This document shows, piece by piece, positions 27,902 through 61,699 of a stretch of 64,000 nt of DNA (its first letter is position 1; each line of letters opens with the position of its first letter). The stretch is from contig OX439046.1 of NCBI GenBank assembly GCA_949317995.1, positions 60,057,774-60,121,773 of the forward strand, given 5' to 3'. The DNA comes from Acholoe squamosa. Its lineage: Eukaryota > Annelida > Polychaeta > Phyllodocida > Polynoidae. The position numbers and the translations under genes are program-made. The notes below the pieces were generated by a model. The model saw only the letters and a list, made by a program, of their open reading frames with translations. It was not told the DNA's origin and made no database searches.

Positions 27902-28276
27902 TTATTGCACACTAACAGCGAATGGATGGCTGAGTCGACAATTCTCTGCAACCATGTTACAAACATACATTGCCATCAAGCGATTCAGGGTCTCAATTTC
28001 TACATCAGTCAATGTGATTATGTCAATTTCTCTGGTGTAACATGCTGGGAAGTTGTAAAACGTTGGCCCACCATCAGCTTTCTTAACCAGTAAATGGAGG
28101 GGTTGGGACAATTCTGCCCCGAGACTGTTGAAGTCGTCACGGATCTCGTTCATATTTCTCAAGGTCATGATCTCATCCTCCGATGGTGTCACATGGTAAA
28201 ATTTGGTGTATAGTTCTGCCAATCTGGATCCTCGGTTGGTGGGAGGCCCAACGTCGGCTTCTTTGTTGTGTTCCAT
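27902..28276 (-). CDS. Small conserved protein, family A, member 1 (unknown function)
   Basis: 124 residues, intronless. A paralogue of the 132-residue protein at 31059-31457: they share FNSLGAELSQPLHLLVKKA / FYSLGGKLTKPVRLLVKKA, a GPxFYxFPAxY segment, and a C-terminal block ending YVCxxxxxNCxLSHPF. No known domain, signal peptide or membrane segment is evident. The stop codon TAA is embedded in the poly(A) signal AATAAA (27901-27906 on the minus strand). A TATATAAA box and E-box lie about 95-120 bases upstream. The real function is unknown; the pair may be virus-specific. Confidence 0.75.
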   Translation of the reverse strand: MEHNKEADVGPPTNRGSRLAELYTKFYHVTPSEDEIMTLRNMNEIRDDFNSLGAELSQPLHLLVKKADGGPTFYNFPACYTREIDIITLTDVEIETLNRLMAMYVCNMVAENCRLSHPFAVSVQ

Positions 28277-28370
28277 CTTGTCAAATTAACTGCCTTTTCT
28301 TAACTAGTATCTCAGCATGCCAACCATTTGTGCTCCCACCAAAGTTGCTGACTTCAGTTTTTGCATAGCT

Positions 28371-28396
28371 TTATATACTTGAGAATCACATGACCA
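28371..28396 (-). promoter_or_regulatory. TATA box and E-box of the 27902-28276 gene
   Basis: On the minus strand TATATAAA (28378-28371), preceded by GTCATGTGAT (about 28396-28387). The leader to the ATG at 28276 is about 65-70 bases after a normal start spacing. The leader segment (phrase CTCAGCATGCCAACCATTTG, 28311-28330 on the plus strand) is duplicated near 28728. Confidence 0.6.
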
Positions 28397-28625
28397 AATA
28401 AGAATTTGGGTCAGTCGGTACAGCATACTAGATCACCAGTCATGTGATCTTATTTGAATATTACAGCAGACAAAGTCACATGACCAAATTAGGAAAAAAA
28501 AAAAAGAATGAAAGGGTCACATTGTAAATCACAGGATAAAAGATCCAGTATATGAGCAATGACAGGAATAGCATCTAATGGCATTTCAATACCCAAACAT
28601 GTCACATGACTTGATCCGATATGAA

Positions 28626-28667
28626 ATGCAAATGAATCACATGGTGCATCTCTATACAGTATATAAG
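28626..28667 (+). promoter_or_regulatory. Orphan promoter: octamer, E-box, TATA
   Basis: ATGCAAAT (28626-28633), TCACATGG (28637) and TATATAAG (28660-28667) on the plus strand. No ORF longer than about a dozen codons follows before the inverted DIRS-like end at 28869, so the promoter may have lost its gene to that insertion or drive a non-coding RNA. Confidence 0.45.
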
Positions 28668-28868
28668 AAAAGACAGGCATAGCATCCTTTACACCTTCTC
28701 ATCTCTGAGGCTCAGCTGAAGTAACAGGTCTCTCAGCATGCCAAGCATTTGTGCTCCCACCAAATTGCTGAGTTAAGTTTTGCATAGTTTTGACAATCAC
28801 ATGACAAATTTAAAAATTAACATTTTTGTTCTAAATTTGTGTAAAAGATAATGTTGTCTATAATATCT

Positions 28869-29201: not shown

Positions 29202-29933
29202 CTATTTCCTCTGGAGAAGTGACCCTGGTTTACCCACATAGAACATGTGAAGTGCACATACAAGGGCATCGATTTGCTTTTCTCTTGGATATTTTATTAA
29301 CCTGTTGGAGCACTCAATCATGTGTTTTCCAGATATTGAATTTGGTAGAGAGATTTCCACCACTCTGGTATAAAGCTTTGGGAAAGCAGCCTCTGTAGTT
29401 GTTACATTGGTAGTTATTATCCCTGGAGGAAATTGCCGACGTACAGCGCTTCTGTACCTCCTGTCTAGACGAACTTCCAATGCACCATCAATGCACGGAG
29501 TCATGTCCTGTAAAACTCGGAGTCCTACTGCAAATACGTCATCAAAGAGTAGAGCTTGTTTATTCACAGCTTCTTCAAGCCAGAACTTGTTAGTGTTCTT
29601 GTTAGGATCAAGAGTTGCATTGGTGAAGGGACTAAGAAGAACTGTGGCAAGAATAGTCTTTCCACTTTCAGATTTACCTGACATCAGTAGGTATTGCTGA
29701 CGAAATTCTCCATTTGCCATGTTTATATAATGATCCCAGAAACCTTTTCCATTGACATCATGATTCAATCTGTCATGACCCAAGCGATCCTCTAAGAATT
29801 GAATGAAATCCTGTTGATGCATCTTCAGCTGCCCTAACTGAGACAAATCAAACTGGTTACAGAGCTCCTGGAGGATTTCCAGATTTGTCTTGAAGTTGGT
29901 ATAGTCAATCTCATATGATGAGATTTTTGCCAT
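29202..29933 (-). CDS. SF3 helicase, E1/large-T-like
   Basis: 243 residues, intronless. The superfamily 3 helicase order is clear: Walker A GKSESGKT (86-93), FWLEEA before Walker B ALLFDDV (127-133), a CIDGALEVRLDRRYR segment (147-161), motif C FPPGIITTN (168-176) and an arginine finger candidate in YTRVVEI (190). The 'DG...R-[basic]-[aromatic/His]...PP...TTN' arrangement is that of papilloma- and polyoma-type replicative helicases more than parvoviral ones. An origin-binding domain is missing: only about 80 residues precede Walker A. Likely role: ATP-driven unwinding at a viral origin, or a captured relic. All catalytic residues I can identify are present. Confidence 0.85.
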   Translation of the reverse strand: MAKISSYEIDYTNFKTNLEILQELCNQFDLSQLGQLKMHQQDFIQFLEDRLGHDRLNHDVNGKGFWDHYINMANGEFRQQYLLMSGKSESGKTILATVLLSPFTNATLDPNKNTNKFWLEEAVNKQALLFDDVFAVGLRVLQDMTPCIDGALEVRLDRRYRSAVRRQFPPGIITTNVTTTEAAFPKLYTRVVEISLPNSISGKHMIECSNRLIKYPREKQIDALVCALHMFYVGKPGSLLQRK

Positions 29934-30284: not shown

Positions 30285-30875
30285 TCAAAAGACTGTCCAT
30301 GTACAAAATGGCCAATCATCTCCTCCTCCTCCATTGCCTCTGATGATCTCTGACTTTGACATCATCCCCAGAAGCAATTCCCGAAATTGACTTCTGGTCT
30401 CCACCTTTCGGACATAGAACTGTTTCGGGATGTAATCAGACACGGCATCGATCCATCTGAGATATTCTACAGAATCTTTAACGAGAACATAACCATCACG
30501 AACACTCAGCAGGGCATGAAGTGTTATAACTAGATGCAGATATCCTAATCCATCTTCTCCATAATCTGATGTGTATTGAAACAGTATATGGTCTATGTGC
30601 CCTATTCTATCGAGAAACAGAGTCAGCGTTTTCAGTATATGGTTGAGTTTTACAGTTAGGAGGGAAGAACTGATGTCACCTCTTTTAAGACAGCAAACAA
30701 ATTCCTCCATATCGAAAACTCCAATTGGAATCGAATAGTGGAATGTCTCCGGGAATCCAAAATCTACCATTTTGAAGAGCGATGGCAAATCCATTCCCTC
30801 CAAATCACCCACAGGAAAGTTGTCATACAGGATTATCTGAATTTTCTCATCTGTATCACCTTCCCAATCTAGCAT
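30285..30875 (-). CDS. Hypothetical protein, 196 residues
   Basis: Intronless ORF with an ATG at 30875. No recognised domain. The N-terminus is acidic (WEGDTDEK), the middle is helical and hydrophobic (LNHILKTLTLFLDRIGHIDH; LVITLHALLSVRDG), and the end has a GNGGGGDDWPF segment. No clear signal peptide or membrane helix. The stop is two bases from an AATAAA signal, matching neighbouring genes. It lies downstream of the family A gene at 31059-31457 on the same strand. Function unknown. Confidence 0.6.
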   Translation of the reverse strand: MLDWEGDTDEKIQIILYDNFPVGDLEGMDLPSLFKMVDFGFPETFHYSIPIGVFDMEEFVCCLKRGDISSSLLTVKLNHILKTLTLFLDRIGHIDHILFQYTSDYGEDGLGYLHLVITLHALLSVRDGYVLVKDSVEYLRWIDAVSDYIPKQFYVRKVETRSQFRELLLGMMSKSEIIRGNGGGGDDWPFCTWTVF

Positions 30876-31058: not shown

Positions 31059-31457
31059 TCAGAACTTCACTTGAAGATCAAAAGGATGTGACAGTTGACA
31101 ATTTTTTCTGCTCAGACGACACACATACAGGCCCATCATCTCCTCAAGAATCGCCCGTTCTTCTTCGGTTAGTTTTATACCACTGCCTCCTCCATAGTGC
31201 GCTGGGAAAAAGTAGTATATCGGTCCACTTTCAGGCCCTGCTTTCTTCACCAGTAATCGAACAGGTTTTGTCAATTTCCCACCGAGACTGTAAAACTCTT
31301 CAACTGCCTTGCTCATTTCAGTCAGGATTCCAAAGTCCTGCATGAGTGGTTCACCATACAGTTCTCTGAAAAGCTTTGTCAGGGACCCAGTGTTGGTCGC
31401 GGGTTCACTGCCTGTATCTTCATTTTCTCTTTTCATTGATGTCTGCATACTTGTCAT
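31059..31457 (-). CDS. Small conserved protein, family A, member 2 (unknown function)
   Basis: 132 residues; paralogue of 27902-28276. Shared features: a SLGxxLxxPxxLLVKKA block near residues 55-70, GPIYYFFPAHY, and the C-terminal LYVCxLSRKNCQLSHPF. The N-terminal 30 residues are variable and polar. The conserved Cys pair might bind metal or form a disulfide, but this is a guess. ATTAAA (minus strand, 31037-31032) is the likely poly(A) signal. The promoter has TATATAAG and several E-boxes and octamers. Confidence 0.75.
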   Translation of the reverse strand: MTSMQTSMKRENEDTGSEPATNTGSLTKLFRELYGEPLMQDFGILTEMSKAVEEFYSLGGKLTKPVRLLVKKAGPESGPIYYFFPAHYGGGSGIKLTEEERAILEEMMGLYVCRLSRKNCQLSHPFDLQVKF

Positions 31458-32657: not shown

Positions 32658-33215
32658 CTATGAAAACACAGATGTGCCCGGTTCACCGGATGCCTTTCCA
32701 AATCCCAATTCATTTGATGGTGCTTTGCTCAATGCCGATCCAAATCCAGCTACTGAAGCACAAGCTGAAGTTGAAGCTGAAGCTGAAGCATCAGGTTGGG
32801 AAGTCGCAGATTTCTGAGCTGATTTACCAAATGGAAATCGGTACTGAGTTGTTGGAAGAGAAAATTTCAGTTTGTTGTGATCATTTCTAAGAGTCTGTTG
32901 TTCATTTCTCACAGAGTTTAATTTTCCGATGATGTCTGCCATCAAGATCTTGCATTGGTCAACTGTTTTCACTGCTGCAAGTGCTATAGGACATACAGGA
33001 GAGTTTTTGAAGTGTTCCACTGCAACAATGTCATCTGCTTCCCATGCATGTACTACAACCCCACATTCATAGCATTGTACAACATCGGTTACTCCATGGA
33101 AAAAGAATCCATTTGAAGCCAGTGTTTCTGCAGATGGTGAAGTTTTCTTCCAACTTCCTGATTCAAAAGTATTCAGCCTCACTGACAATTTTTCGAACTG
33201 CTTATTTTTCGCCAT
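32658..33215 (-). CDS. BIR-domain protein (IAP-like)
   Basis: 185 residues. A single BIR domain spans about residues 10-80: RLNTFESGSWKK, GFFFHGVTDVVQCYECG, AVEHFKNSPVCP, with the zinc pattern C-x2-C-x16-H-x6-C complete. A short coiled helical region follows, then an Ala/Ser-rich tail. No RING or CARD is present, so it is a minimal IAP-type protein like those carried by large DNA viruses of invertebrates. It may inhibit apoptosis by binding caspases or IAP antagonists, but a mitotic (survivin-like) role cannot be excluded. AATAAA lies at 32617-32612 (minus), in the same TGCAATAAAAAAAA context as after 27902. Confidence 0.88.
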   Translation of the reverse strand: MAKNKQFEKLSVRLNTFESGSWKKTSPSAETLASNGFFFHGVTDVVQCYECGVVVHAWEADDIVAVEHFKNSPVCPIALAAVKTVDQCKILMADIIGKLNSVRNEQQTLRNDHNKLKFSLPTTQYRFPFGKSAQKSATSQPDASASASTSACASVAGFGSALSKAPSNELGFGKASGEPGTSVFS

Positions 33216-33430: not shown

Positions 33431-34108
33431 CTAGCTTTCTGTGACATCTACTCTTTTGTTTGTTGAAACACTGCTAATTAGCTCCTCAACAAAAATGGCC
33501 ACATCACTCCTTCCCATGTTGTCACGTAGGACTTGAACCAGAGTGTAAGGAGGACTGAGTTGTTTGTATTTCCAGACCATCAAAACTTCAAAAACAGGGT
33601 TTTTTACAGTCCTCTCAGAAGTAATGGGAGCAGCAATTCTAGACAGCTCGCTGAAGCTGAGGCGTAATTCTATACCCAGAGACTTCCAGTCTCGTGGGAG
33701 TTCCTCTGCTAATAGAGTGAAATAACTCTCTACTTTCCAGTCATCAGTGGGTATTATAGAGTCGTCATACATTTCATTCTTACGCATGAATTCTTTACTT
33801 AACTCAACCAAATCATTCCTTCCTATTTCACTTAGAGCCCCTCGAAGGTCTCTCCATTCCGCCAAGCCTGTTTTCCTGTACCAGCAAAATAGCATATCAC
33901 GGGCTAGGGTAGAAACATCTCTTTCACTTTTTAGATACTCCATTTGACTCATCCTTAGACCTAGGAAACAACCTAGAGGCATGTAATCAGCTGTTTTCAG
34001 TTTCCGACTGACTTGGAGGAGGAGGCTGTCTGATAAATAACCCATGTCGTCTGTTAGAAAGTGAGTGTATGAGGGGACTAACCCACTGATAGCATCAGAG
34101 TACTCCAT
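33431..34108 (-). CDS. Tandem death-domain protein
   Basis: 225 residues with two death-fold domains. The first (about 27-105) has the typical order LLQVSRKLKTADYMPLGCFL, SERDVSTLARDMLFCWYRKT, then a W-x-L-x-x-AL-x-x-IGR-x-DL ending. The second (about 130-220) is more divergent: YFTLLAEELPRDWKSLGIEL, then LVQVLRDNMGRSDVAIFVEE. There is no protease, kinase or membrane segment, so it is an adaptor or decoy that could intercept FADD/caspase-type signalling. It lies beside the BIR gene on the same strand, which suggests a joint role in cell-death control. The start ATG (34108) gives a normal N-terminus. AATAAA is at 33397-33392 (minus). Confidence 0.8.
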   Translation of the reverse strand: MEYSDAISGLVPSYTHFLTDDMGYLSDSLLLQVSRKLKTADYMPLGCFLGLRMSQMEYLKSERDVSTLARDMLFCWYRKTGLAEWRDLRGALSEIGRNDLVELSKEFMRKNEMYDDSIIPTDDWKVESYFTLLAEELPRDWKSLGIELRLSFSELSRIAAPITSERTVKNPVFEVLMVWKYKQLSPPYTLVQVLRDNMGRSDVAIFVEELISSVSTNKRVDVTES

Positions 34109-34698
34109 GGTGGTTACAGCTTAGTGTGATGGTTATTTCAGTAGAAATTCTATGTGGTAATAGTCAATGAGCAGAACTCTAAATTTAATTCACTAAACAG
34201 AATCATCCGTCTAGCATTTTAAGGGGTAAAGAACATGAACTCAAAGTGAGTCATGTTCTTCAACAATGGTATATTGAGGAAAAAATGTATTTGCATCTAT
34301 AGCTCTTTTTCTTTGCAGAGGAAACAGCATATGGTTGGACAAATAAGTAGGGACAAATAACATTTTTCATGAGCTTTTAAGAAACAATTGATTAATTTTG
34401 CATAACACTCAATATAGAGAAGCCAGTTTCCTTCATAAGCATTGAGACTGAAAAGCACTTTTAAAAAAATAATGTCTGTAGTCCACTATAAAAAAATTAT
34501 TTGTGGGTCTCTAAAATACCCCTGATTAACAGTTGCAAAATATAATTTCAGTTTTATCATCATTTGATTTTCAACAAACCTACCAATCATTAAATCCAGT
34601 CCGTTTGACTCAACCGGGACAAAATAGAAATTGTATTTTACAGTCGATGCAGCAAGCTAATATAGGTCCATAAAACTCTTGCGAATGCAAGCAGGAAA
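34109..34698. other. Intergenic gap of 590 bases
   Basis: AT-rich, no ORF supported. It separates the minus-strand death-domain gene from the plus-strand coiled-coil genes. The part after about 34560 is the first copy of a roughly 800-bp tandem duplication (see the coiled-coil genes). Confidence 0.5.
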
Positions 34699-34914
34699 AT
34701 GGCAGAGGATATGTACAAGCAACAATTGACAAAGTCTATCAAGACGTGGATGAATGAAGTGGTCATCGTTCTCCAGTCCTGTGTAGTTCGTCTCGAGAAG
34801 TTGATCCACTCCAGTGAGAATAACCAGGAGATGGAGAACCTTATTAAGAAACAAGAAAACATGATATCACTTCTGGAGGAAAAGCTAGAGATCAAGTTAC
34901 AGAACTCATCATGA
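34699..34914 (+). CDS. Small coiled-coil protein, family B, copy 1
   Basis: 71 residues, rich in Glu, Lys, Leu and Ile, predicted to be a continuous helix (WMNEVVIVLQSCVVRLEKLI, then MENLIKKQENMISLLEEKLE with heptad-like Leu/Ile spacing). About 80% identical to the copy at 35513-35728. Both copies and their flanks arose by tandem duplication of about 800 bp. AATAAA lies 14 bases after the stop. Start ATG preceded by AGGAAA. Function unknown; it may form dimers. Confidence 0.7.
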   Translation: MAEDMYKQQLTKSIKTWMNEVVIVLQSCVVRLEKLIHSSENNQEMENLIKKQENMISLLEEKLEIKLQNSS

Positions 34915-35512: not shown

Positions 35513-35728
35513 ATGGCAGAGAATATGTACAAGCAAGAACTGACAGCGACTATCAAGACCTGGATGGATGAGGTGGTCATCACTCTCCAGTCTTGTATAG
35601 CTCGTCTCGAGAAGTTGATTCATTCCAGTGAGAATATCCAGGAGTTGGAGAACCTTATCAACAAACAAGAAGAGATCATATCACTTCTGGAAGGACAGCT
35701 GGAGATCAAGTTACAGAATTCATCCTGA
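35513..35728 (+). CDS. Small coiled-coil protein, family B, copy 2
   Basis: 71 residues, sister of 34699-34914 with the same length and ends (MAENMYKQELT to IKLQNSS). Substitutions are mostly conservative (VVIVLQ/VVITLQ, LEEKLEIK/LEGQLEIK), which suggests that both copies are under selection as proteins. A better TATA box is present here (TTTATATAC near 35481). AATAAA follows the stop within about 20 bases. Confidence 0.7.
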   Translation: MAENMYKQELTATIKTWMDEVVITLQSCIARLEKLIHSSENIQELENLINKQEEIISLLEGQLEIKLQNSS

Positions 35729-36348: not shown

Positions 36349-37047
36349 TCAGTTAGAATATGGAAATATGGCAGTCCTGTAGTGTGTGTAGTCAACACCA
36401 CACTTGTTTACCTCTACTGCTGTTCTTGCTGAGCTAAATATTGGACTATGGTTGTTGAAGGCCAATGAATTTGAAAAGTGTTCATTGAACAGTCTGTGTG
36501 CCTCTTGCCTTGTGATTGGTGCTTCCAGGTGGTGGCAGTATTCTTCTTTGAACAGCTTAGACAAATTACGATATAGAAGGACCAAAGTAGAGGCAGACTT
36601 TATCTTCAATTCCACTGCAAACTTGTTCAGCAAATGCTGTTTGAACTGTTCTGGAACAAAAAGACTGCTCCATTCCTCTATTTTGGCTCCCTTGGCTCCT
36701 ACAAGGAAATCCTTTAGTCTTTTGATGAAGGATTGCTTCACCACTCTTCCAAGCAAGCCTGATGCTTCCCCAAACAATGTTTCCAACTTTGTGAATGTGC
36801 AATTGAATTGGAGTACAATATAGATAATTTCTTTAGAATATTGTTCAGCAGAATATACACAGTATTGTGTCTCTACTTCTTTCCCCCGTACAGTATGAGT
36901 TGTAGGCAAAGTTACCAATAAGTCCTCCACTGACTTTGCATCAGACTCTAGAGACAGTAACCAGTTTTCTGCGTGTGTGTCAGGCGTTACCACACTGGTA
37001 TCAATATAGCGCTGAAGGATGTAAATTCCAGGAAATATGTCAGTCAT
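36349..37047 (-). CDS. Conserved protein, family C, copy 1 (unknown function)
   Basis: 232 residues, paralogue of 37233-37940. Shared signatures: DTHAENWLLSLESDAKSVED near 20-40, TQYCVY, FNCTFTKLE, ASGLLGRVVKQS, then KDFLVGAK and a W-x-x-x-F near 140. The fold looks mostly helical; no domain I recognise. No signal peptide. A conserved pair of 230-residue proteins side by side suggests tandem duplication within the element. Confidence 0.7.
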   Translation of the reverse strand: MTDIFPGIYILQRYIDTSVVTPDTHAENWLLSLESDAKSVEDLLVTLPTTHTVRGKEVETQYCVYSAEQYSKEIIYIVLQFNCTFTKLETLFGEASGLLGRVVKQSFIKRLKDFLVGAKGAKIEEWSSLFVPEQFKQHLLNKFAVELKIKSASTLVLLYRNLSKLFKEEYCHHLEAPITRQEAHRLFNEHFSNSLAFNNHSPIFSSARTAVEVNKCGVDYTHYRTAIFPYSN

Positions 37048-37232: not shown

Positions 37233-37940
37233 CTACAGTATGGCTGTACTCATGCAGTCGGCATAGTCAATGAGGCACCTCTTTATCTGTAGAGCCTTTC
37301 TAGCATGGGCTAACTGCTTAGTTTGACTCATGTTCACAAAGTTCAAGGAATTACAAAGGTTTTCCTCTAACAACCTTTGTGTGTCTACTTCTGTTGTTGT
37401 CACGTCCAGTTTCTTGCAGTATTCAGTGTCATTGACATCAGATAATTGACGATACAGAATCACCAAACTAGGAATGGAATCTATCTTCAATTTTACTGCA
37501 AAGCGAATCAATAAGGTCATTGAGAATTTCTCATTTTCTCTCCAGAAAATTGTGTTCCAATCATCTACTTTGAATGATTTGGCTGAGACAAGGAAATCAT
37601 TCAGTTTGTTGAAGGATGACTGCTTCACAACTCTTCCAATCACACCTGATGCTTGATTGAATATCCATTCCAATTGAGTAAATTTGCAATCAAATTTGAG
37701 TGCAATGAAAACAATCTGCTGAGAACATCTTTCAACAGGATAAACAAAGTACTGTGTTACTACTTCATTTCCATGAGTAGCAGGCAGACCTTCCAACAAC
37801 TCCTCTACTGACTTGACATCAGACTCTGAGTAGAGAAGCCAGTTTCCTGCATGAGTGTTAGGCTTAACAATGGTCTTTGAGAGGAAACGTTGAACGGTGT
37901 GGAATACATCTGCCATCATGTCAGGAAAACAATCATACAT
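37233..37940 (-). CDS. Conserved protein, family C, copy 2 (unknown function)
   Basis: 235 residues. Matches copy 1 along its length (NTHAGNWLLYSESDVKSVEE, TQYFVYPVE, FDCKFTQLE, ASGVIGRVVKQSS, NDFLVSAKS). An internal Met at residue 8 or 9 is an alternative start. AATAAA on the minus strand at 37221-37216, about a dozen bases from the stop. Function unknown. Confidence 0.7.
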   Translation of the reverse strand: MYDCFPDMMADVFHTVQRFLSKTIVKPNTHAGNWLLYSESDVKSVEELLEGLPATHGNEVVTQYFVYPVERCSQQIVFIALKFDCKFTQLEWIFNQASGVIGRVVKQSSFNKLNDFLVSAKSFKVDDWNTIFWRENEKFSMTLLIRFAVKLKIDSIPSLVILYRQLSDVNDTEYCKKLDVTTTEVDTQRLLEENLCNSLNFVNMSQTKQLAHARKALQIKRCLIDYADCMSTAIL

Positions 37941-38176: not shown

Positions 38177-40438
38177 TCAATAAAGAAAGCAACTTGCAGT
38201 GTTATCTCGTCTTGAAGATACAAACGGCAAAAACAATCCATTCATAAGTTTCTTTTTACATTCTGTGCAATCCTTCTGTATTAGCTGTCTGCCCAACTTT
38301 ATTTTGAGAGCATTTAGTTTTTGACATCTATTCCATCTATAGAGATCATAACGCCTCCACATTCTTCTCCTCTCATGCTGTTCCTTCTTTTCTATCTCGC
38401 ATAGAGGCATCCATTTCTCCAGCCTCCGAGAAAGAAGTTCATCTCTTTTTTTATTCACTATGCAGTCTGGGACATCTCTGTAAATGTAGTCGGTCTCCTT
38501 CTTCTTATACATCGGTGTGTAATTTGGATGATTACTATAATTTTCCTGAAACTCAGAATCATTCACATACCTTACCATCCATTCCACACTAGTAACCGGC
38601 CAATATTCATTAGTTTCTTGTTTTGTAGGATGGGTCTTTTGGTTTTTGAGATATTTCTGGTCATAGCCTGGTTTGAGTAATTCCATAAAAGGATCACTTA
38701 ACCAAGCTTTCATCCATCCTCGTGAACCTTGCTCGTGATATATATCTTGGTCGCTTTGTCCAGTACTGTGGTCATCACCTTTCCCAGCGTTATTTGACTC
38801 AATGTGTAATTGATCTGGTTCAGTACATTTCATATCACCTTCTTTTATCTTCTCTGCATTTTCACTCTGGATTTCAGACCAACTTGCAATATCTTCATAC
38901 CTCATCTGTTTCAAAAAGTCAATTTCTTTTTTATTTTCCATATATAAATTAAATTCATAGTTCAGTTTTGTGTAAAGCATCTCTGTTCTGAACTTCTTGA
39001 TCACATAGTCTGGGACAACTCTATAAATCATATCAGTCACCTGCTTCTTGTACATAGGTGTATAAAAAGGATTGTCATAATTTGCATTGAAGTTGGAATC
39101 TTTCACATATCTTGCCATCCATTCCACACTAGTGACTGGCCAAAATTCATTGGTTTCTTCTTTAGTGGGATGGATCTTTGGGTTCTTCAGGTAGTCATGC
39201 ATAACCGAATCTCCGTCCAAGAAAAAATACTTAAATGGATCTCTTATCCAAGCACTCATATACTCCTTTGAAAATCTCCGGAGATACATATCATTATCAT
39301 TTTCTTTGGTTCTATGAAGTGATTCATGCAGTGAATTGTTTCCACCATCCCTCTCCTCTTTTACTGCAGTACTACATTGATCTGCTTCTACAGTGTTAAA
39401 TATAGTCACCTCTTTAAACAATTTCATTCCATCTTCCTTTTTTGATGTGTTATCAGCATTTCCTTTCATGTCTGAGGTCTCCATCATTGTCCCACCTGAA
39501 TGTTCTAAGGTTCCATTATTGTTACATTCTGTATCCATGGCTTCACACCTCTCCGGTTCATTTCCCATAACCTCTGATTGGAGATCTAATGAATCATGAT
39601 TCTTATCAATTAATTTTGAACCATCCACTGGTGTATGCTCTTTTGGTTCTTTATTTAAATACTCCACTATTCTCCCATCCGAACATTTCTTATTTTCACT
39701 CTCTATGACATAACCTTCATATTTCTCACTCACCATATCCATGTAATCAAATTGTTTTGGCAGATCTGAATGATGCACAATTTCACCTTCTGAATATTCT
39801 ATATTTCCACTATTCACCACTATGTCTTCATCTCTCTCACTCCAAATTTCCACATCTTCAGCTTGCGCCAGGCGAGATTTCGGACCATGTGTCTTTTCAT
39901 GTTCCTTTAGATCATCTACAGTTTCTACATCTGAATGATCTAGAAGTTCACCTTTAGAGCATGTGATAGTTTCCATCACCATATTTTCATATCTCTGACC
40001 TCTAATTTCTGTACCTCCAGATTGCTTAAGCATATCTATCGATTCCTGCTTCTTCTCATCTGTTGCAGAGTCATTCACAGCAGTATATTCCATAGGTTCT
40101 TTTAAATGTTCAGATCTTTCATCCACAGTTAGCTGAGATGAATCTTCTATTTTGCTTTTCTCTTTGGCATCTAGTTTGATCCCTGTATTGATGTATTTTG
40201 ATGTTTCATTCACATCACTTTCTTCCTTTAAGTTATGAAGCAGCCTCTTCCTTACTTTAACTTCTCTCCTATATTGTTCATTCTTGTCTCGTAATTCTTT
40301 TCTTCTCACTTGGTCTGATATCAACCTTTTGTACCATTCCCTCTTCCTTTTATTATCCTTCCCCTGATAGTTTGGGTCTTTCATCTTCCTTTTCTTGTGC
40401 CTTGAAAGAGAAGAATCGATAGAAGCCATTTTGAACAT
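38177..40438 (-). CDS. Large basic/acidic protein with internal duplication (bZIP-like N-terminus)
   Basis: 753 residues. Residues 12-75 are very basic (SRHKKRKMKDPNYQGKDNKR, then repeated Arg/Lys/Glu helix), resembling a DNA- or RNA-binding basic helix, possibly bZIP-like but without a clear leucine heptad. Residues 80-390 are acidic and low complexity. Then two copies of a module of about 115 residues (near 395-510 and 575-690) sharing HPTKxETNEFWPVTSVEWM, RYVxDSxF, and NYTPMYKKxxTDxIYRxVPD. The module is unknown to me. The N-terminus is shared with the protein at 43982-44599, and so is the promoter. Start at 40438 or at a second Met three codons later. It may be a transcription regulator. 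Confidence 0.75.
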   Translation of the reverse strand: MFKMASIDSSLSRHKKRKMKDPNYQGKDNKRKREWYKRLISDQVRRKELRDKNEQYRREVKVRKRLLHNLKEESDVNETSKYINTGIKLDAKEKSKIEDSSQLTVDERSEHLKEPMEYTAVNDSATDEKKQESIDMLKQSGGTEIRGQRYENMVMETITCSKGELLDHSDVETVDDLKEHEKTHGPKSRLAQAEDVEIWSERDEDIVVNSGNIEYSEGEIVHHSDLPKQFDYMDMVSEKYEGYVIESENKKCSDGRIVEYLNKEPKEHTPVDGSKLIDKNHDSLDLQSEVMGNEPERCEAMDTECNNNGTLEHSGGTMMETSDMKGNADNTSKKEDGMKLFKEVTIFNTVEADQCSTAVKEERDGGNNSLHESLHRTKENDNDMYLRRFSKEYMSAWIRDPFKYFFLDGDSVMHDYLKNPKIHPTKEETNEFWPVTSVEWMARYVKDSNFNANYDNPFYTPMYKKQVTDMIYRVVPDYVIKKFRTEMLYTKLNYEFNLYMENKKEIDFLKQMRYEDIASWSEIQSENAEKIKEGDMKCTEPDQLHIESNNAGKGDDHSTGQSDQDIYHEQGSRGWMKAWLSDPFMELLKPGYDQKYLKNQKTHPTKQETNEYWPVTSVEWMVRYVNDSEFQENYSNHPNYTPMYKKKETDYIYRDVPDCIVNKKRDELLSRRLEKWMPLCEIEKKEQHERRRMWRRYDLYRWNRCQKLNALKIKLGRQLIQKDCTECKKKLMNGLFLPFVSSRRDNTASCFLY

Positions 40439-40497: not shown

Positions 40498-40540
40498 TCA
40501 CTCATTCAGAGAGTAGGACAATTGCACACAAGCAAGGGGC

Positions 40541-47148: not shown

Positions 47149-47667
47149 ATGGCTCACTACAATATCGGAGAAGAGCGATCTGTTTTGATCCATGTAAATA
47201 TGGAATGTCATGAAGTGGAAATGGACATTGATCCGCATTGTCCAGAGCGGAAGGTATTTTCTCTTTCAAGACAGAGATTGTCAAGGCTTTTGTCTTGTGT
47301 ATCTGAAGTCAATTCCCGCCTTGAAAAAGATGTCGTTTTAGAGACAGATCACAAAAATTGCTGGGTCGAAGAGTCAATCCTTCACATTGGAGGACCAATA
47401 CATCTGCATGCATGTCCTGTGTGCAAGACTGTTGAAATAGCCAATTGTTGGCTGAATATAGACGGCATTTCACCAAGAAATGGAGATGTCACCATATGCA
47501 TGAGTCACAAGGAGTGGGACAAGTTATGTAATGTACTAGATAGTATAGCAGAGCCACTGCAGTTGAGACATGTTGTACCTTGCTTTCAAAGTGAAGACCA
47601 CCAGAACCAAATTGGGATGCTTAAGTGTGCCGAATGTAATCCTTTCAATTTTATGGAGTGGTACTGA
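47149..47667 (+). CDS. Cysteine-containing protein, 172 residues (unknown; weakly PC4-like)
   Basis: ATG at 47149. Two CxxC pairs (HACPVCKTVE near 88; LKCAECNPFNF near the end), which could form a zinc ribbon. A block DVTICMSHKEWDKLCNVLDS resembles FQTIGICQHEWEELLNQMRW in the N-terminal region of the BTB protein at 50826, so the two share a domain. The pattern of a hydrophobic strand followed by 'EWxxL' recalls the end of PC4/SUB1-type single-stranded-DNA-binding domains, but this is a weak inference. The stop TGA is directly followed by AATAAA. Confidence 0.65.
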   Translation: MAHYNIGEERSVLIHVNMECHEVEMDIDPHCPERKVFSLSRQRLSRLLSCVSEVNSRLEKDVVLETDHKNCWVEESILHIGGPIHLHACPVCKTVEIANCWLNIDGISPRNGDVTICMSHKEWDKLCNVLDSIAEPLQLRHVVPCFQSEDHQNQIGMLKCAECNPFNFMEWY

Positions 47668-50317: not shown

Positions 50318-50359
50318 TACTAGAGCAAAAAGATGCAGTCAGTCATTACATCAGACACA

Positions 50360-50722
50360 ATGTCAAGCAGTCACTTCAGAGAAGCACGATTGGCTGTTCC
50401 TGTATATGTTGAGCCATATCTGATAGAATATTGGTTCGTGAAAAGAACATATCAGCCTCCGTCTCAACAAGTACAGCCTGAGACAGCACACAGCATCATC
50501 CTTCAAAGACCACCACTATACATGAAGCCAATGGAACTACAAATGCAAGGCACCTTGGCTTTGCAATCATCTCAATGCATTACTCCAGAACGTCCTCCAC
50601 CCGTGTTGCAACCTTTGGCACCTAGGAAGAGGAAATGTAAACAGAGAGTGCTGAGATACATCTCTACATCTGAACCTCTGCCACCTTGGCGAAGACGCTC
50701 ACCAGTTATTCCAGAGAATTAA
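50360..50722 (+). CDS. Proline-rich basic protein, 120 residues
   Basis: The ORF is open from an ATG at 50333, but that lies only 16 bases after the TATA box and would be upstream of the transcript start; the ATG at 50360 (MSSSHFREARLAVP) is the better start. The protein is Pro- and Gln-rich with ERPPPVLQPLAPRKRKCKQR followed by PLPPWRRRSP near the end: a basic cluster that could be a nuclear localisation signal, beside PxxP motifs. No known domain. Similar in style to the small ORF at 31771. Confidence 0.6.
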   Translation: MSSSHFREARLAVPVYVEPYLIEYWFVKRTYQPPSQQVQPETAHSIILQRPPLYMKPMELQMQGTLALQSSQCITPERPPPVLQPLAPRKRKCKQRVLRYISTSEPLPPWRRRSPVIPEN

Positions 50723-50825: not shown

Positions 50826-52388
50826 ATGATAACAGGAAAGCTGGATGACTGTGATGTGAAAGACCTTGTCTATCTGAAATTGTCAGAGAGATTATTTTTT
50901 GTTTTGATTAGGTCAAAGAGATTTGTTTACTTCTGTGATGATATAAGTCAGGACATGAAAGGCAGCTGTCTGAGATGGGAGTGGATTTCTACCAATCGAT
51001 ATGAAGTACGCAAGAAACTGCGTAATTATCCCAATATTTCAATTTCTAGTGATCATAAAATCCAACCATGGCCATACACAGATATATGTTTTGAAGAAAA
51101 TGGATTTCAAACAATAGGAATTTGCCAGCATGAATGGGAAGAGCTCTTGAATCAAATGCGCTGGCTTTCTCTGGTTGTTAGAATGCCATTAGATGTAAAT
51201 CTACATACATGCTGGACACCAGAAGAATGGAGGAGACACAAATGCGAGGACATATTTAATGATCCAAAGAAATGTGATGCTGCCATTGTAATTGGCACCA
51301 ACAAATACCATGTATCAAAGAAATGTCTTTCCAAAAGCCCTGTTCTAAGTGTTATGCTTAACAGCCAAAACTTTAAGGAATCAAGACTCAAAGAGATATG
51401 TGTGATAGAAATGGATGAAGTTATGCCATACATGGAGCATGTTCTCAGGTTCATGCATTCTGGAAAAATAGACATCACACAGGAGAACATAATGCCGTTG
51501 ATGCTTATTTCTGACAAGTACAATATTGGGGAATTAGAGAGACTATGTAAAAGAGCCATGAATAATTTTGTTTTCTCTGGGATGGCTGTAGAATTAGTCA
51601 TGCAGTGGTGGGTTTTTACTGAACACCTGAGAATCGACACTATGTGTAAAGTCTATCTACAGCTCAACTTGATGTCTGTGCTAACATCTGAACTTTTCTT
51701 TGATATGGACCTAAATGATCTTGTGTCCCTGTTGAAAGGAAATAAACAAGTTATAGAGAGTGAATACACTCTGTTCAAGCATGTATTGAAGTGGCTGAAA
51801 ATGAATGACAGAATCGCAGATCTTAAAATTGTTTTGCCCCATATCAAGCTCCATGCCATGTCCATGGATGAACTGTCAGATATAGAAAGTTGTCTCCCTG
51901 AGGATGAAGGAAAAGCCTCCTTGTATGAAGCTATGACATTTAATCGTCCATGTCATACAAGAGGAAATGATCAGTTCTATAGAAGGATTTACACCGCTAA
52001 TGGCCATGAAATTCATGCCAAGACCAAACCGTTTGCCAAGTACAGCAGTATAATGTCCCCCACATTAGATCTGCGGGTCATGTATTGTACTTCAAGTGGC
52101 CAGAATGAGATTCACATAATTACTGAGCAGTTCACAGGAGCCCATTTCAGTTCAATAGAAATATCGACAGTTGTCTACTCATCAGAAAACAACATCAGAT
52201 TTGTTAAGGGAGTTCATGAGGCCAACCTTCCTATAAGAGGTAACTGTGGTCATAAACTGATCATCAATGTCCCCAAGAAGAATTTCTCTTCTAGACGTAC
52301 AAAGTTAACCCCTGATACCATTACCATAATCCCCAATCACACAGAATGCCATAACCGGGGAAATGCTGTGAGAAAGTTGTGTTTCTGA
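50826..52388 (+). CDS. BTB-BACK protein
   Basis: 520 residues from the ATG at 50826. Residues 1-140 hold a domain shared with the 47149 protein (GICQHEWEELLNQMRWL). The BTB domain (about 145-245) has CDAAIVIGTNKYHVSKKCLS, SPVLSVMLNSQNFKES and LRFMHSGKIDITQENIMPLM. The BACK domain (about 250-360) follows with VELVMQWWVF and FKHVLKWLKMNDR. The C-terminal 150 residues lack Kelch repeats and look beta-rich. BTB-BACK proteins usually link cullin-3 ubiquitin ligase to substrates, and large DNA viruses carry such genes. The N-terminal domain ahead of the BTB is unusual. Confidence 0.85.
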   Translation: MITGKLDDCDVKDLVYLKLSERLFFVLIRSKRFVYFCDDISQDMKGSCLRWEWISTNRYEVRKKLRNYPNISISSDHKIQPWPYTDICFEENGFQTIGICQHEWEELLNQMRWLSLVVRMPLDVNLHTCWTPEEWRRHKCEDIFNDPKKCDAAIVIGTNKYHVSKKCLSKSPVLSVMLNSQNFKESRLKEICVIEMDEVMPYMEHVLRFMHSGKIDITQENIMPLMLISDKYNIGELERLCKRAMNNFVFSGMAVELVMQWWVFTEHLRIDTMCKVYLQLNLMSVLTSELFFDMDLNDLVSLLKGNKQVIESEYTLFKHVLKWLKMNDRIADLKIVLPHIKLHAMSMDELSDIESCLPEDEGKASLYEAMTFNRPCHTRGNDQFYRRIYTANGHEIHAKTKPFAKYSSIMSPTLDLRVMYCTSSGQNEIHIITEQFTGAHFSSIEISTVVYSSENNIRFVKGVHEANLPIRGNCGHKLIINVPKKNFSSRRTKLTPDTITIIPNHTECHNRGNAVRKLCF

Positions 52389-52600: not shown

Positions 52601-53014
52601 ATGAAAAGAGTGAACACAGTGACGATTGAACGAAAACGATTACAAAAGTGTACAATGGAAAATACACTGTATGGACTGTCTATACATGCAGCAACAATGA
52701 TAAGGCAGCTGAAGGATAATGGCAAGGTTTCTGGTGATGCCTTAGATAGGTTGCATGTAGGATGGAATGCTTATGTTGAGGCTCATCAAGAATGTTATCA
52801 ACAACCACCTGCACACAGGGGACTACATCCATCCTCAGAAATGAACAGCTTACTCAGATGTGAGATTTGTTTTGACCAACTTTATGACCAACCAACCATG
52901 GAAATGAATCCTTGTGGTGACATTTTTCATGTGCTCTGTGCTGAAAGATGGCTTCAGAGGTGGCAAACTTGCCCACATTGTCATGAAGCTGTACTAAATA
53001 GTAAGAAACATTAA
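52601..53014 (+). CDS. RING-family protein with altered RING (137 residues)
   Basis: ATG at 52601. N-terminal module: CTMENTLYGLSIHAATMIRQ, then LDRLHVGWNAYVEAHQECYQ. C-terminal RING: CEIC, then NPCGDIFHVLC and CPHC. The fourth zinc ligand, normally His two after the third Cys (PCxH), is Asp here (PCGD), so the RING is degenerate or binds metal differently. It could have lost E2 binding. First of three family members in a row, all on the plus strand, about 140 and 20-50 bases apart. Function: possible E3-like or decoy. Confidence 0.8.
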   Translation: MKRVNTVTIERKRLQKCTMENTLYGLSIHAATMIRQLKDNGKVSGDALDRLHVGWNAYVEAHQECYQQPPAHRGLHPSSEMNSLLRCEICFDQLYDQPTMEMNPCGDIFHVLCAERWLQRWQTCPHCHEAVLNSKKH

Positions 53015-53151: not shown

Positions 53152-53637
53152 ATGAACAGAGTGGTAACAGACAGAGTCCGTAGTAAAAGATGTACTCTGG
53201 AAAATTCCATCTATGGGCTGATTGCACATGCAACACTGATGCTCAAACAACTGCAGGAAACTGGGAGATCTACCGAAGATGTATCAGATAGAATGAAGGT
53301 AGGGTGGATTGTCTTTGTACGTGCATTTCAAGAATATCACCGTGAATGTAATCCACCCCCACCACCACCACCACCACCGCCTCCTCATCCACAGACTGAA
53401 GAAACTGTTCATATGAGAGATGAGTCCCGGATCCATATTTGCGATTCACCTGGTAGATATGAAGCTGAAGAACCTCTGAAGTGTGATGTATGTCTAGACC
53501 TGCTTGACAATGAAGACACCACAACTCTTATTCCATGCGAACACACATTTCACAGCGGATGTGCTGAACAGTCACTAAATGCGAGACCAAGTTGCCCATA
53601 TTGCCGTGAAAATGTTCATGGCCTTCGTCGTAACTGA
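53152..53637 (+). CDS. RING-family protein with intact RING-H2 (161 residues)
   Basis: ATG at 53152. N-terminal module CTLENSIYGLIAHATLMLKQ and DRMKVGWIVFVRAFQEYH, then a run of about twelve prolines, then RING-H2: CDVC, IPCEHTFHSGC, CPYC with all eight ligands in order. Probable E3 ubiquitin ligase; the N-terminal module, shared by five genes here, would choose the substrate. The proline run is the same linker as in the 46791 and 55424 proteins. Confidence 0.85.
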   Translation: MNRVVTDRVRSKRCTLENSIYGLIAHATLMLKQLQETGRSTEDVSDRMKVGWIVFVRAFQEYHRECNPPPPPPPPPPPHPQTEETVHMRDESRIHICDSPGRYEAEEPLKCDVCLDLLDNEDTTTLIPCEHTFHSGCAEQSLNARPSCPYCRENVHGLRRN

Positions 53638-53654: not shown

Positions 53655-54095
53655 ATGGATTTATTTTCCTTGTGTTATATAGCGGCCATGCCTGGTCAAA
53701 TACAAAAGAATATTCTAATCAATGCACTGCACCTTCTAGTCGAAACTTCAGGGAATATTCTAGAGGAGATGCAAGGTGATGGATGGGCAACGGAAGATCT
53801 CTTACAAAGTATGAATGATGGCTGGCAGAACTATGTGCGAGCATATCAAGAATATTTACAGGGATCCAATTCTTCACCACCTTTTGCCCACTCATCTAGA
53901 GAAACTACAGTTGTGAACAGTACATCAGAAAATACTAAATGCGAGATATGTTTCGGCTACCTGCACACTCAATCTACTGTACAACTAGTTCCATGCAGGC
54001 ACAAATTTCACACATTGTGTGCTGAATTTAGGGTGCAAAGCAGAGACACTTGTCCACATTGTTGTGAAACAGTGGAGGGGTTTTGCTATGATTAA
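53655..54095 (+). CDS. RING-family protein with intact RING-H2 (146 residues)
   Basis: Starts at ATG 53655 or, to fit the family better, at ATG 53688 (MPGQIQK). The N-terminal module is divergent (INALHLLVETSGNILEEMQG; SMNDGWQNYVRAYQEYLQGS) and there is no proline run. RING: CEIC, VPCRHKFHTLC, CPHC, all ligands present. AATAAA occurs 11 bases after the stop. Probable E3 ubiquitin ligase. It overlaps nothing and follows the previous gene closely. Confidence 0.8.
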   Translation: MDLFSLCYIAAMPGQIQKNILINALHLLVETSGNILEEMQGDGWATEDLLQSMNDGWQNYVRAYQEYLQGSNSSPPFAHSSRETTVVNSTSENTKCEICFGYLHTQSTVQLVPCRHKFHTLCAEFRVQSRDTCPHCCETVEGFCYD

Positions 54096-55410: not shown

Positions 55411-55423
55411 GAATTTCGTTGCA

Positions 55424-56065
55424 TCAATCAATGTTAGTTGTCCGCCTGTCTATTTCAGACCTACACAAAGGGCATGTGCTTCGGCCAAAATATCTCCACC
55501 TATTACTACAGCTTTCATGGAAGCTATGACCGCATGGGTGCAGTGTTTGTGTAATCTCTCCATTTTCAAGTGAGTCAAAGCATACACTGCAAAGGTCTTC
55601 CTCCTCCTCCTCCATTGGTACATCAGGTGGTGGTAACTGTGGAGGTGGTGGCGGTGGAGGTTGAGGTGGTGGTGACTGTGGAGGTGGTGGCGGTGGTGAC
55701 TGTGGAGGTGGTGGCGGTGGAGGTGGTGGTGATGGTGGTAATGGTGGTGGTGATTGTGGTGGAGATGGTGGTGGAGGTGGTAGTGACCGAGGTGGTGCAT
55801 GCCGAGGAGCTGGATGGGCTGGTGGAGACGGCGGTGGGGGCCGTGGCGGAGGTGAAGGAGGTGTTAGTGAGGCATTGAATGCTTGAACGTACCTGCCAAG
55901 GGCACGCATGTAGGCATCCAAGCCACCCTCCATTCTTTCGACCGTGTCTTGAGTGGTCGCACCGTCCTGCTGAAGTTCCATCAGCATTGTGCTCGCCCTA
56001 GACATTATGCCGGCCAGGCTATTCTCAAGCTCGCTTCTTCGGAGAACAAGTCTCCGTCTATCCAT
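55424..56065 (-). CDS. RING-family protein with long proline linker (213 residues)
   Basis: ATG at 56065. N-terminal module SELENSLAGIMSRASTMLME and ERMEGGLDAYMRALGRYVQA; then about 80 residues that are nearly all proline with Ser/Gln; an acidic EEEEED; then RING-H2: CSVC, HPCGHSFHESC, CPLC, complete. Probable E3 ubiquitin ligase. The proline linker is far longer than in its relatives, and the DNA coding it is a (GGT/GGA/GGC)-rich minisatellite, so the linker probably varies between genomes. The gene is alone on the minus strand. A valine-rich ORF antisense to the linker is an artefact. Confidence 0.85.
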   Translation of the reverse strand: MDRRRLVLRRSELENSLAGIMSRASTMLMELQQDGATTQDTVERMEGGLDAYMRALGRYVQAFNASLTPPSPPPRPPPPSPPAHPAPRHAPPRSLPPPPPSPPQSPPPLPPSPPPPPPPPPQSPPPPPPQSPPPQPPPPPPPQLPPPDVPMEEEEEDLCSVCFDSLENGEITQTLHPCGHSFHESCSNRWRYFGRSTCPLCRSEIDRRTTNID

Positions 56066-58380: not shown

Positions 58381-58589
58381 CTGCTAGATCTAACGACTAA
58401 AGGTTGGCGGACCGGGCTCTTCACCACCACCCCATGTTATTGGGCCAGAGGGTCTGAGCGGTCCCCGTTGTGCATTCGCTGTCTGTGTTCAGCTGCCATT
58501 CCACGGAGCGAGAGGCCGTCAAGATGCGCCTCCGTCAGAGTTACTAAGGCTAGTCGCCGTTTCGCTCTGAGGCTCACACCTCTGCTCTC

Positions 58590-59400
58590 CTCACATATGA
58601 CACAGGGGTGGTGACATTGTGAGGCGCCTCACGGACACCCTACTCCTCCCCGGGACCCCATGGAGGGGTCATGAGCCCTGAGCTGACAGGTGCACTGCTC
58701 TCCTCACATATGACACAGGGGTGGTGACATTGTGAGGCGCCTCACATACACCCCACCCCTCCCCGGGACCCCATGGAGGAGTCCTGAGATATTCTCAAAT
58801 TTCTCAAATTTCTTCCTCTGGTGGCCATCTTGGCAGCCATCTTGGATTGTAAAAAAATAACAACTTCTGACCATTTAGATTTCTACCGTGAAGCTCCACG
58901 CCAAAAATGAGTCAAATCGGACTGTAAACACCAGAGATATTCACAAATTTCAATTTTTCCTTCTCTGGCGGCCATCTTGGCGGCCATCTTTGATTCTGTA
59001 AAAATATCCTTTTGGACTCTTTCGGGTTTATAAGGGCAAGCCCCATGACAAAAATGAGTCAAATCGGACCGTAAACACCAGAGATATTCTCCTTTGAAGC
59101 TCGCGTGCGCAGCTGGGTAGTCCCCTACACATATGATACAGGGGTGGTGACATTGTGAGGCGCCTCACAAACACCCTACCCCTCCCCATCACTACACAGT
59201 CCCCCACACATATGGTACAGGGGTGGTGACATTGTGAGGTGCCTCACAGACTTTGATGGTTAATATCTCGGAAACTTTTAGGGTCTCAGATCTGAAATTT
59301 GGCACGGTTTGGCTTCTCTATGGGGCCTTTGATCACACTAAATTTCGTCCACATCGAATCACTTTAGTTTATGGTGACATTGTGAGGTGCCTCACAAGTT
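58590..59400. repeat. Repeats with the palindrome GTGAGGCGCCTCAC
   Basis: A unit of the type ACATATGACACAGGGGTGGT then GACATTGTGAGGCGCCTCAC occurs at about 58590, 58705, 59130 and 59210 (the last two with changes such as GTGAGGTGCCTCAC), often followed by CCCCTCCCCGGGACCCCATG. The 14-bp palindrome is perfect in three copies. No ORF. Confidence 0.7.
58790..59100 (-). repeat. Inverted copies of the CAAGATGGCCGCC repeat
   Basis: Two units in the opposite orientation to the array at 59480-60960 (GGCGGCCATCTTGGCGGCCA, TGAGTCAAATCGGACCGTAA, ACACCAGAGATATTC). The pair of arrays faces each other across the end of the 29-bp inverted repeat. Confidence 0.85.
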
Positions 59401-59479
59401 GCGTAGTTGGACAGTCCCATTGCAGGACTTAGAAAAATTTCTGGTTTGCGTAGTTGGACAGTCCCATTGCAGGAGTTTA

Positions 59480-60960
59480 AAAAGAGAAACTTGAATATCT
59501 CTGGTGTTTACGGTCAGATTTGGCTCATTTTTGTCGTGGGGCCTCCCTGTACAACCCTGAAGGGTCTAAATGAACTCTTTTCACAAAATCCAAGATGGCC
59601 ACCAAAATGGCCGCCAGAGAAGGAAAAGTGGAAATTTGAGTATATCTCTGGTGTTTACAGCCCGATTTGGCTCATTTTCGTCGTGGAGCTTCCCTGTACA
59701 ACTCTGAAGGGTCTAAAAGAACTCTTTTTGAAAAATCCAAGATGGCCGCCAAGATGGCTGCTAGAGAAGGAAAATTGGAAATTCGAGAATATCTCTGGTG
59801 TTTACGGCCCGATTTGGCTTATTTTCGTCGTGGAGCTTCCCTGTACAACCCTGAAGGGTCTAAAATAACTCTTTTTGCAAAATCCAAGATGGCCGCCAAG
59901 ATGGCTGCCAGAGAAAGAAGAAATGGAAATTTGAGAATATCTCTGGTGTTTATGGTCTGATTTGGTTCATTTTTATCATGGGGCCTCCCTGTACAACCCT
60001 GAATGGCCTAAAAAAACTTTCTTAATAAAATCCAAGATGGCCACCAAGATGGCCGCCAGAGAAGCAAAAGTGGAAATTTGAGAATATCTCTGGTGTTTAC
60101 GGCCCGATTTGGCTTATTTTCGTTGTGGAGCTTCCCTGTACAATCCTGAAGGGTCTAAAATAACTCTTTTTGCAAAATCCAAGATGGCCGCCAAGATGGC
60201 TGCCAGAGAAAGAAAAAATAGAAATTTGAGAATATCTCTGGTGTTTACAGCCCGATTTGGCTCATTTTTGTCGTGGAGCTTCCCTGTACAACCCTGAAGG
60301 GTCTAAAATAATTCTTTTTGCAAAATCCAAGATGGCCGCCAGAGAAAGAAAAAATGGAAATTTGAGAATATCTCTGGTGTTTACGGTCTGATTTGGTTTA
60401 TTTTCATCATGGGGCCTCCCTGTACAACCCTGAAGGGTCTAAAAGAACTTTCTTAATAAAATCCAAGATGGCCGCCAGAGAAGCAAAAGTGGAAATCTGA
60501 GAATATCTCTAGTGTTTACGGTCCGATTTGACTCATTTTCGTCGTGGAGCTTCCCTGTACAACCCTGAAGGGTCTAAAAGAACTCTTTTTGCAAAATCCA
60601 AGATGGCCACCAATATGGCTGCCAGAGAAGGAAAAGTGGAAATTTGAGTATATCTGTGGTGTTTATGGTTGGATTTGGCTTATTTTCATTGTGGCGCTTC
60701 CCTTTACAACCCTGAAGGGTCTAAAAGAACTCTTTTTGCAAAATCCAAGATGGCCACCAAGATGCCTGGCGGAGAAGGAAAAAAATGGAAATTTGAGAAT
60801 ATCTCTGGTGTTTATGGTCTGATTTGGTTCATTTTCATCATGGGGCCTCCCTGTACAACCCTGAAGGGTATAAAAGAATTTTCTTATAAAATCCAAGATG
60901 GCTGCCAAGATGGCCTTCAGAGAAGTTAAAAGTAAAAATGAGAATAGCTCTGATATTAAC
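59480..60960 (+). repeat. Tandem array with AAGATGGCCGCC (YY1-like) sites
   Basis: About ten units of 135-150 bp. Each contains ATATCTCTGGTGTTTACGG, CCGATTTGGCTCATTTTCGT, CTTCCCTGTACAACCCTGAA, and ATCCAAGATGGCCGCCAAGA. The last phrase holds one or two matches to the YY1 site (AAGATGGCnGC). Several ORFs cross the units on both strands, but they shift frame between units and are not genes. Confidence 0.9.
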
Positions 60961-61324
60961 AGTTTGATCTGGATCATTTTTCTCCAGGAATAGACATTAA
61001 GGATACCTTGTTTGTGTTCAAACATTTTTAAATGGGACTGTGTTAAAACAACGAAAAGCTTGTTCACAATTTCCAATAATTCTTGACCTCACATATGTTT
61101 TTAGTTCCTTTTATCCATGTCAGGTAATAGTCTTTATGCTGTCTTTTCCTCCTCTCACTAAACCTCATTTTCATGCCTTGTCTTTGTTTGTGCAATGCAC
61201 CCTCTTACAGAGTTATCCAAGGGTATTCTAGTATACAATGAGAATCAAAGTTTAAAAAGAAGAAACCAACATTACAAATATAGTCAAGTTGTTTATTATG
61301 CATGGCTAAAACTGACAAGGATTT
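60961..61324. other. Spacer, no gene
   Basis: AT-rich DNA after the YY1-like array; no ORF supported. TTTATT at 61292-61297 is the likely poly(A) signal (AATAAA, minus strand) of the following zinc-finger gene. Confidence 0.5.
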
Positions 61325-61699
61325 TTAAAAGTCATCATCATCATATGGTAATGTGTTCTGACAAGTCATAATCTGCTCCTTTGAATGATAGTTATCTTCA
61401 CCTTCGTCGTTCATGTCATCATCCTCTTTTTGGGATGTCTCTTCCCACTGAAAAGACAAGTCATTCAATGATTCAGCATGGATGTTATCTTGGGGTTCCA
61501 CAGATTTTGGCACAGGGTCATAGGACCCCTTGGATGCCTGCTGCTCTTTACGAATTCCCTTCTTTTTCAGCTGACGGCAGACGCTCTGTAAAAGCCTCTC
61601 TGTCACTGATTGTTCAGTATGCTTTGCTTTCACATGGGCCAGTAGATGACGCTGATATCTGCCACATAGGGGGCACAATATATCTTTCTTGATAACCAT
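61325..61699 (-). CDS. Single C2H2-type zinc-finger protein with acidic tail
   Basis: 124 residues. The N-terminus has CPLCGRYQRHLLAHVKAKH (Cys 9 and 12, His 22 and 27; His 18 is an alternative ligand), a short C2H2-like finger. A basic segment follows (RQLKKKGIRKEQQ, near 42-54), then a strongly acidic C-terminus (EDDDMNDEGED; DDDDF at the end). This is the layout of a small transcription regulator: DNA-binding finger, basic region, acidic tail. It lies at the right edge of the gene cluster, just before the right-hand GGATTACC array. Confidence 0.65.
   Translation of the reverse strand: MVIKKDILCPLCGRYQRHLLAHVKAKHTEQSVTERLLQSVCRQLKKKGIRKEQQASKGSYDPVPKSVEPQDNIHAESLNDLSFQWEETSQKEDDDMNDEGEDNYHSKEQIMTCQNTLPYDDDDF

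Follow-up and report, generated by a model that had tools for sequence, protein, structure and literature searches.

About 20 genes packed on both strands at positions 27902-56065 of a 64,000-nt window of contig OX439046.1 from the annelid Acholoe squamosa (all positions given here are window positions) include a helicase of the large-T/E1 type whose missing front half lies in two separate, duplicated genes. They also include a 656-residue protein of previously unknown affiliation (p656), which belongs to a family whose C-terminal part is predicted to adopt a kinase fold. The cluster is probably, with a rough probability of 60%, the endogenised part of an undescribed, nucleus-replicating large double-stranded DNA virus of invertebrates, or an element derived from such a virus. 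A large DNA virus origin had been proposed in a first-pass annotation of this stretch, and is now more strongly supported by the helicase with its separate front-half genes and by matches of p656 to giant viruses; the lineage is still as open as it was then.

The helicase gene (29202..29933, minus strand) encodes 243 residues and comprises only the AAA+ part of an SF3 helicase of the large-T/E1 type, matching PPV_E1_C at 3e-11 and Polyoma_lg_T_C at 4e-6. A profile of this protein and P0001, its one database relative, found large T structures in the PDB at 3e-10, and in the alignment with these structures the Walker A and Walker B motifs and the sensor-1 Asn are all readable. A Lys-His pair in the DNA-binding hairpin is a defining feature of the large-T/E1/adomavirus initiators. 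The pair is present in P0001, and its positions are taken by other residues in the window helicase.

Two further minus-strand genes, N1 (36349..37047) and N2 (37233..37940), match each other at 48% and are located 6-8 kb from the helicase, each of these ORFs (open reading frames) ending in a stop codon of its own. The C-terminal part of N1 aligns with residues 1-71 of P0001, which continues in frame into the helicase, so that a single P0001 polypeptide contains both the helicase and the end of the front half. Via this bridge N1 and N2 are identified, at the level of sequence, as stand-alone front halves of a large-T/E1-like initiator. A separate match, P0062, on a contig of 847 bp, terminates where N1 and N2 terminate. 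An AlphaFold2 model of N2, although of low confidence, had polyomavirus origin-binding domains as its best PDB matches, large T accounting for 19 of the 21 top rows. The same low-confidence model gave five matches at E 0.001 against viral structures, and all three that carried a name were adomavirus or papillomavirus helicases; the alignment with the carp adomavirus helicase extends over the N2 length (237 columns, 18% identity).

An alternative arrangement, in which N1 or N2 is joined to a helicase exon by splicing, was considered. It is disfavoured, and separate genes are preferred, because an AATAAA follows the stop of N2 after 13 nt and no common donor was seen by eye at the N1 and N2 ends. 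For N1 the first 100 nt past the stop are free of AATAAA, and one occurs at 159 nt. A possible remnant of a third gene of the N1/N2 type is located at 34372..34461 (minus strand), with a tblastn E of 0.07 only.

To our knowledge, initiators of the large-T/E1 type are best known in small DNA viruses and are always a single protein. Adomaviruses, papillomavirus E1 and polyomavirus large T have the same type of SF3 helicase as the cluster, and the N2 model, within its low confidence, resembles their origin-binding and helicase proteins. They differ in that here the binding and helicase halves are separate and the binding half is duplicated. In addition, the gene set is larger, with BIR, Death, BTB-BACK and RING proteins, and has no capsid among the 29 window ORFs scanned (22 inside the span; one 64-kb view, stop-interrupted stretches not being accepted). 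Adomavirus capsid and protease were both absent from these 29 ORFs, the window holding only part of the element.

The p656 gene (48078..50048, minus strand) encodes a helical N-terminal part followed by a PI4K/HipA-like kinase (residues 412-656), as seen in a confident AlphaFold2 model. The protein has 60 database relatives, grouped in clusters with as many as 10 members, and lacks a dedicated Pfam family. The kinase part of the model shows a kinase fold, and a beta-3 Lys and an Asp-Asn-Asp set, which we take from known kinase families to be the catalytic residues, are conserved in the family. Foldseek of the model against the PDB gave no match at E 0.001, the best 50 rows being kinases or proteins with kinase-like domains, and the p656 profile found nothing among PDB sequences and nothing of weight in PHROGs. 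Compared with PI4-kinase type II and HipA-CtkA, p656 has about 10% identity and is joined to a largely helical part of 410 residues. Alignment A1 holds 26 of the 60 relatives and the window protein, whereas residue counts and the tree use all 60 and the window protein. In the tree, with SH-aLRT as the only support, P0002 is nearest, and P0060 and P0061 are on long branches. The predicted protein of one relative, P0034, continues into a reverse transcriptase (RVT_1), which may be a gene-call artefact.

Against viral structures the p656 model gave 12 matches at E 0.001, and the nine with names were all from giant viruses (two lineages checked). The giant-virus matches (E from 1e-15 to 1e-4, the best spanning 740 columns), at 11-16% identity and low TM-scores, are uncharacterised proteins of Cedratvirus, Pithovirus LCPAC, Orpheovirus, Megaviridae and Pandoravirus. 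The name RarA, whose C-terminal fold was considered for the N-terminal part of p656 (RarA/WRNIP1), stands on one of the 12, and no RarA occurred in the best 50 PDB rows of either structure comparison. Only p656 points towards Nucleocytoviricota; the major capsid, DNA polymerase B, packaging ATPase and A18-like helicase of that group were not found in the scanned ORFs. In contrast to its giant-virus look-alikes, the animal p656 family is found on an animal contig of chromosome size in at least one named case. Contigs of at least 100 kb carry 14 of the 60 relatives and contigs of at least 1 Mb carry 10, the one named being from the clam Mactra antiquata. It may tentatively be suggested, at lower confidence than the viral origin itself, that an undescribed lineage of large animal DNA viruses, with a split initiator and a giant-virus-type kinase, has repeatedly entered the genomes of molluscs and other animals.

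The first-pass annotation had described about 20 packed, intronless genes with short promoters and adjacent poly(A) signals. Contiguous ORFs of 124-753 residues were recovered at its coordinates, and the 20 taken as genes occupy 51% of 27902-56065, or 63% of its non-tandem-repeat sequence. The span holds 21 ATG-initiated ORFs of at least 120 residues, antisense ones included, whereas 60 second-order Markov simulations gave 2.27 on average and six at most; at 200 residues or more the count is nine against a simulated mean of 0.02. Every recognised domain is contained within a single ORF, which, as a statement on sequence, is the basis for calling the genes intronless. Adjacent poly(A) signals were borne out: nine of 19 ORFs have an AATAAA no more than 100 nt from the stop, compared with 7.5% of random positions within the span (binomial P 3.5e-6). 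The short promoters stand less well, because TATAWA lies within 150 nt upstream of only five of the same 19 ORFs, a modest enrichment over the 8.2% of random positions (P 0.016). In both tests the ORF at 61325 was included and two ORFs of 71 residues were left out.

The cluster had also been drawn as far as 61699. It ends more properly near 56.1 kb, because from there to the end of the window tandem repeats account for 71% of the sequence, including most of 56.1-61.3 kb, and a single doubtful ORF is present. This ORF (61325..61699, minus strand) encodes 124 zinc-finger-like residues with sub-threshold Pfam matches only (zf-Di19 at 0.056) and is possibly not part of the cluster. In its left half, 27.9-44.6 kb, the cluster has ten genes, all on the minus strand, and two small ORFs on the plus strand, and the right half, 46.8-56.1 kb, has genes of mixed orientation between two related inverted tandem arrays.

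The protein classes named at first, namely SF3 helicase, BIR, Death, BTB-BACK and a RING family of four paralogues, were all matched in Pfam. On the left are an IAP-like BIR-domain protein with no RING matched (32658..33215, minus strand; BIR 4.4e-16) and a protein with two Death stretches (33431..34108, minus strand; Death 3.9e-11), for which no PDB match at E 0.01 was found. On the right, the plus-strand BTB-BACK protein (50826..52388; BTB 9.5e-14, BACK 1.7e-11) has extra N- and C-terminal parts, and a short duplicate of its C-terminal part lies just past its stop (52437-52526, plus strand; E 0.009). It is followed on the same strand by the RING proteins R1 (52601..53014; zf-RING_2 1.3e-8), R2 (53152..53637; zf-RING_2 2.8e-11) and R3 (53655..54095), the last with zf-RING_2 at 7e-6, just under the cut-off, and zf-C3HC4 at 1.5e-4, above it. 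R4 (55424..56065, minus strand; zf-RING_2 6.6e-11) has a long proline-rich linker. A fifth copy of the family (46830..47018, minus strand; tblastn 3e-14) retains the N-terminus and the proline run only, with stops preceding any RING.

Among the remaining genes, the paralogues p124 (27902..28276) and p132 (31059..31457), both on the minus strand, are 39-40% identical, and p124 has no Pfam match and PDB profile matches no better than E 0.79. Related inverted repeats upstream of the two (28517-28727 and 31462-31720) are possibly shared promoter elements. Also on the minus strand are p196 (30285..30875), with no Pfam or PHROG match, p753 (38177..40438), with an internal repeat of about 100 residues in two copies that are 59% identical, and p202 (43982..44590), which has the basic N-terminus of p753 in common (47% over 82-86 residues). 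The plus strand carries cc1 (34699..34914) and cc2 (35513..35728), two ORFs of 71 residues, 79% identical and labelled coiled-coil-like by eye, without a Pfam match above cut-off, as well as p129 (50333..50722), without a significant Pfam match, and p172 (47149..47667), with an AATAAA directly after its stop. The proposal that some of these proteins act on transcription was not upheld, as neither p124/p132 nor p172 has a Pfam or PDB match of weight. PC4-like single-strand DNA binding, considered for p124/p132, p172 and the BTB N-terminus, likewise found no Pfam or PDB support.

Duplication thus affects p124/p132, N1/N2, the p753/p202 N-termini, cc1/cc2 and the RING family with its four genes and reduced fifth copy. 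The dN/dS ratios, estimated by the Nei-Gojobori method, are 0.35 for N1/N2, 0.25 for p124/p132, 0.50 for p753/p202, 0.23 for the p753 internal repeat, 0.35 for R1/R2, 0.44 for R1/R3, 0.38 for R2/R3 and 0.42 for cc1/cc2. These values are rough, because synonymous distances are at least 0.73 in all pairs but cc1/cc2 (0.29); the three comparisons involving R4 reached saturation and yielded no value. All eight measurable pairs are at or below 0.50, as would be expected of translated genes.

The span is not necessarily one element. A large-T-type replicon at 27.9-44.6 kb could lie beside a second element at 44.7-62.7 kb carrying p656, BTB and RING genes between the inverted arms, a reading that is possible but less probable than the viral one proposed above. 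It is kept alive by the inverted orientation of the arms (left 44688..45584, right 61795..62733), which are related, at best 97% identical over 426 nt, and face each other across about 16 kb. The gene orientation changes at 44.6-46.8 kb, where the tandem-repeat share is 0.73, and p656 has 60 database matches whereas the helicase has one. However, the arms, whose ends are ragged, are themselves tandem arrays built from units of unlike length (200 and 267 bp). Another short stretch of the repeat, the third in all, occurs near 54 kb, and no clean terminal repeat or target-site duplication was found by eye. For the ragged ends and the missing target-site duplication the arms are not called terminal inverted repeats of an 18-kb element. 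A further array, of 171 copies of 20 bp, separates p753 from p202 (40533..43878). The tandem arrays are not argued to be viral hr-like origins, because the tandem-repeat share of the flank (0.22 in 1-27.7 kb) is close to the 0.21 of the cluster's left half.

Among the scanned ORFs, no family of capsids, terminases or DNA-dependent polymerases was recognised, in agreement with the first-pass annotation; polymerase matches were confined to the reverse transcriptases of the left flank. The type-B polymerase and retrovirus-like integrase of Polintons and adintoviruses and the capsid, terminase and polymerase of Malacoherpesviridae were equally absent from these ORFs. A giant capsid-less transposon-like element, or a relative of the Polinton/adintovirus type, that amplifies via a large-T-like module would agree with p656 clusters of up to 10 members, some on large contigs, and with the inverted arms. 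It is nevertheless unlikely, as no integrase, transposase or type-B polymerase was found in the 22 ORFs scanned inside the span, and both the reverse transcriptases and the weak match to a recombinase sit outside the cluster. Animals have BIR, Death, BTB-BACK and RING families as well, and the duplicate pairs are constrained, as might be seen in a host immune gene cluster or in viral genes taken over by the host. The contiguous ORFs with close AATAAA signals, the viral-type initiator and the giant-virus look-alikes of p656 make such an origin improbable.

The left flank contains two reverse transcriptases at 5.2-10.4 kb. One, at 5.2-7.6 kb on the plus strand, combines RVT_1 (3.7e-10) with a weak phage-integrase match (0.085), and the other, at 9179-10928 on the minus strand, has RVT_1 at 3.7e-40, preceded by a fragment of an endonuclease (3e-4, below cut-off). 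The regions 3021-7584 (plus strand) and 24237-25904 (minus strand) are presumably DIRS-like pieces and 9179-10928 presumably of LINE type, names given by eye; Pfam gave nothing significant for the ORFs at 3021, 24237 and 25023. Searches for tRNA genes and Rfam families gave no match. A tandem array of 14.6 copies of 180 bp lies at 20371-23005. Two perfectly complementary copies of 126 nt (25894-26019 and 28869-28994) surround p124 and a 96-bp tandem array, one of them lying where the 25023-25904 ORF begins. With reverse transcriptases and a tandem-repeat share comparable to that of the cluster, the surroundings fit a chromosome. An endogenous state, which the first-pass annotation had left as a possibility, is therefore favoured, also because p656 relatives occur on chromosome-size contigs; junctions with host DNA were not found in the window. 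Many ORFs are intact, as they would be if a free viral genome had contaminated the host assembly or been joined to it by mis-assembly, but the flanking reverse transcriptases, the long tandem arrays throughout and the gene remnants make this the least probable of all.

For comparison, the lancelet endogenous malacoherpes-like genome BelcheriHV-1 is reported (PMC12373286) as compact virus gene blocks in an invertebrate chromosome with flanking repeats. The present cluster is likewise compact and repeat-flanked, and differs in that herpesvirus genes were not recognised in the scanned ORFs. Scans of IMG/VR and of GTDB prokaryote genomes found no relative. Among the literature matches listed, a set with poor coverage of subscription papers and bioRxiv, no title or abstract opening described the cluster or p656.

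If the cluster derives from a nucleus-replicating virus, the putative origin-binding proteins N1 and N2 would bind the origin, as in polyoma-, papilloma- and adomaviruses, and load the SF3 helicase, which would melt it. Host polymerases would then copy the DNA in the nucleus. Meanwhile, the BIR and Death-domain proteins may block host cell death, and the BTB-BACK and RING proteins may redirect host ubiquitin ligases. A lipid or protein would be phosphorylated by p656, which perhaps acts together with RING ligases, because two of its relatives carry a RING.

Should this origin hold, the separate and partly duplicated initiator genes would show how initiators of this type assemble and are lost, and would link the replication of small tumour viruses to large viruses of invertebrates. 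The p656 family is an unnamed, widespread marker that may serve to follow the group through animal genomes and metagenomes, and its shared predicted fold ties animal chromosomes to giant viruses.

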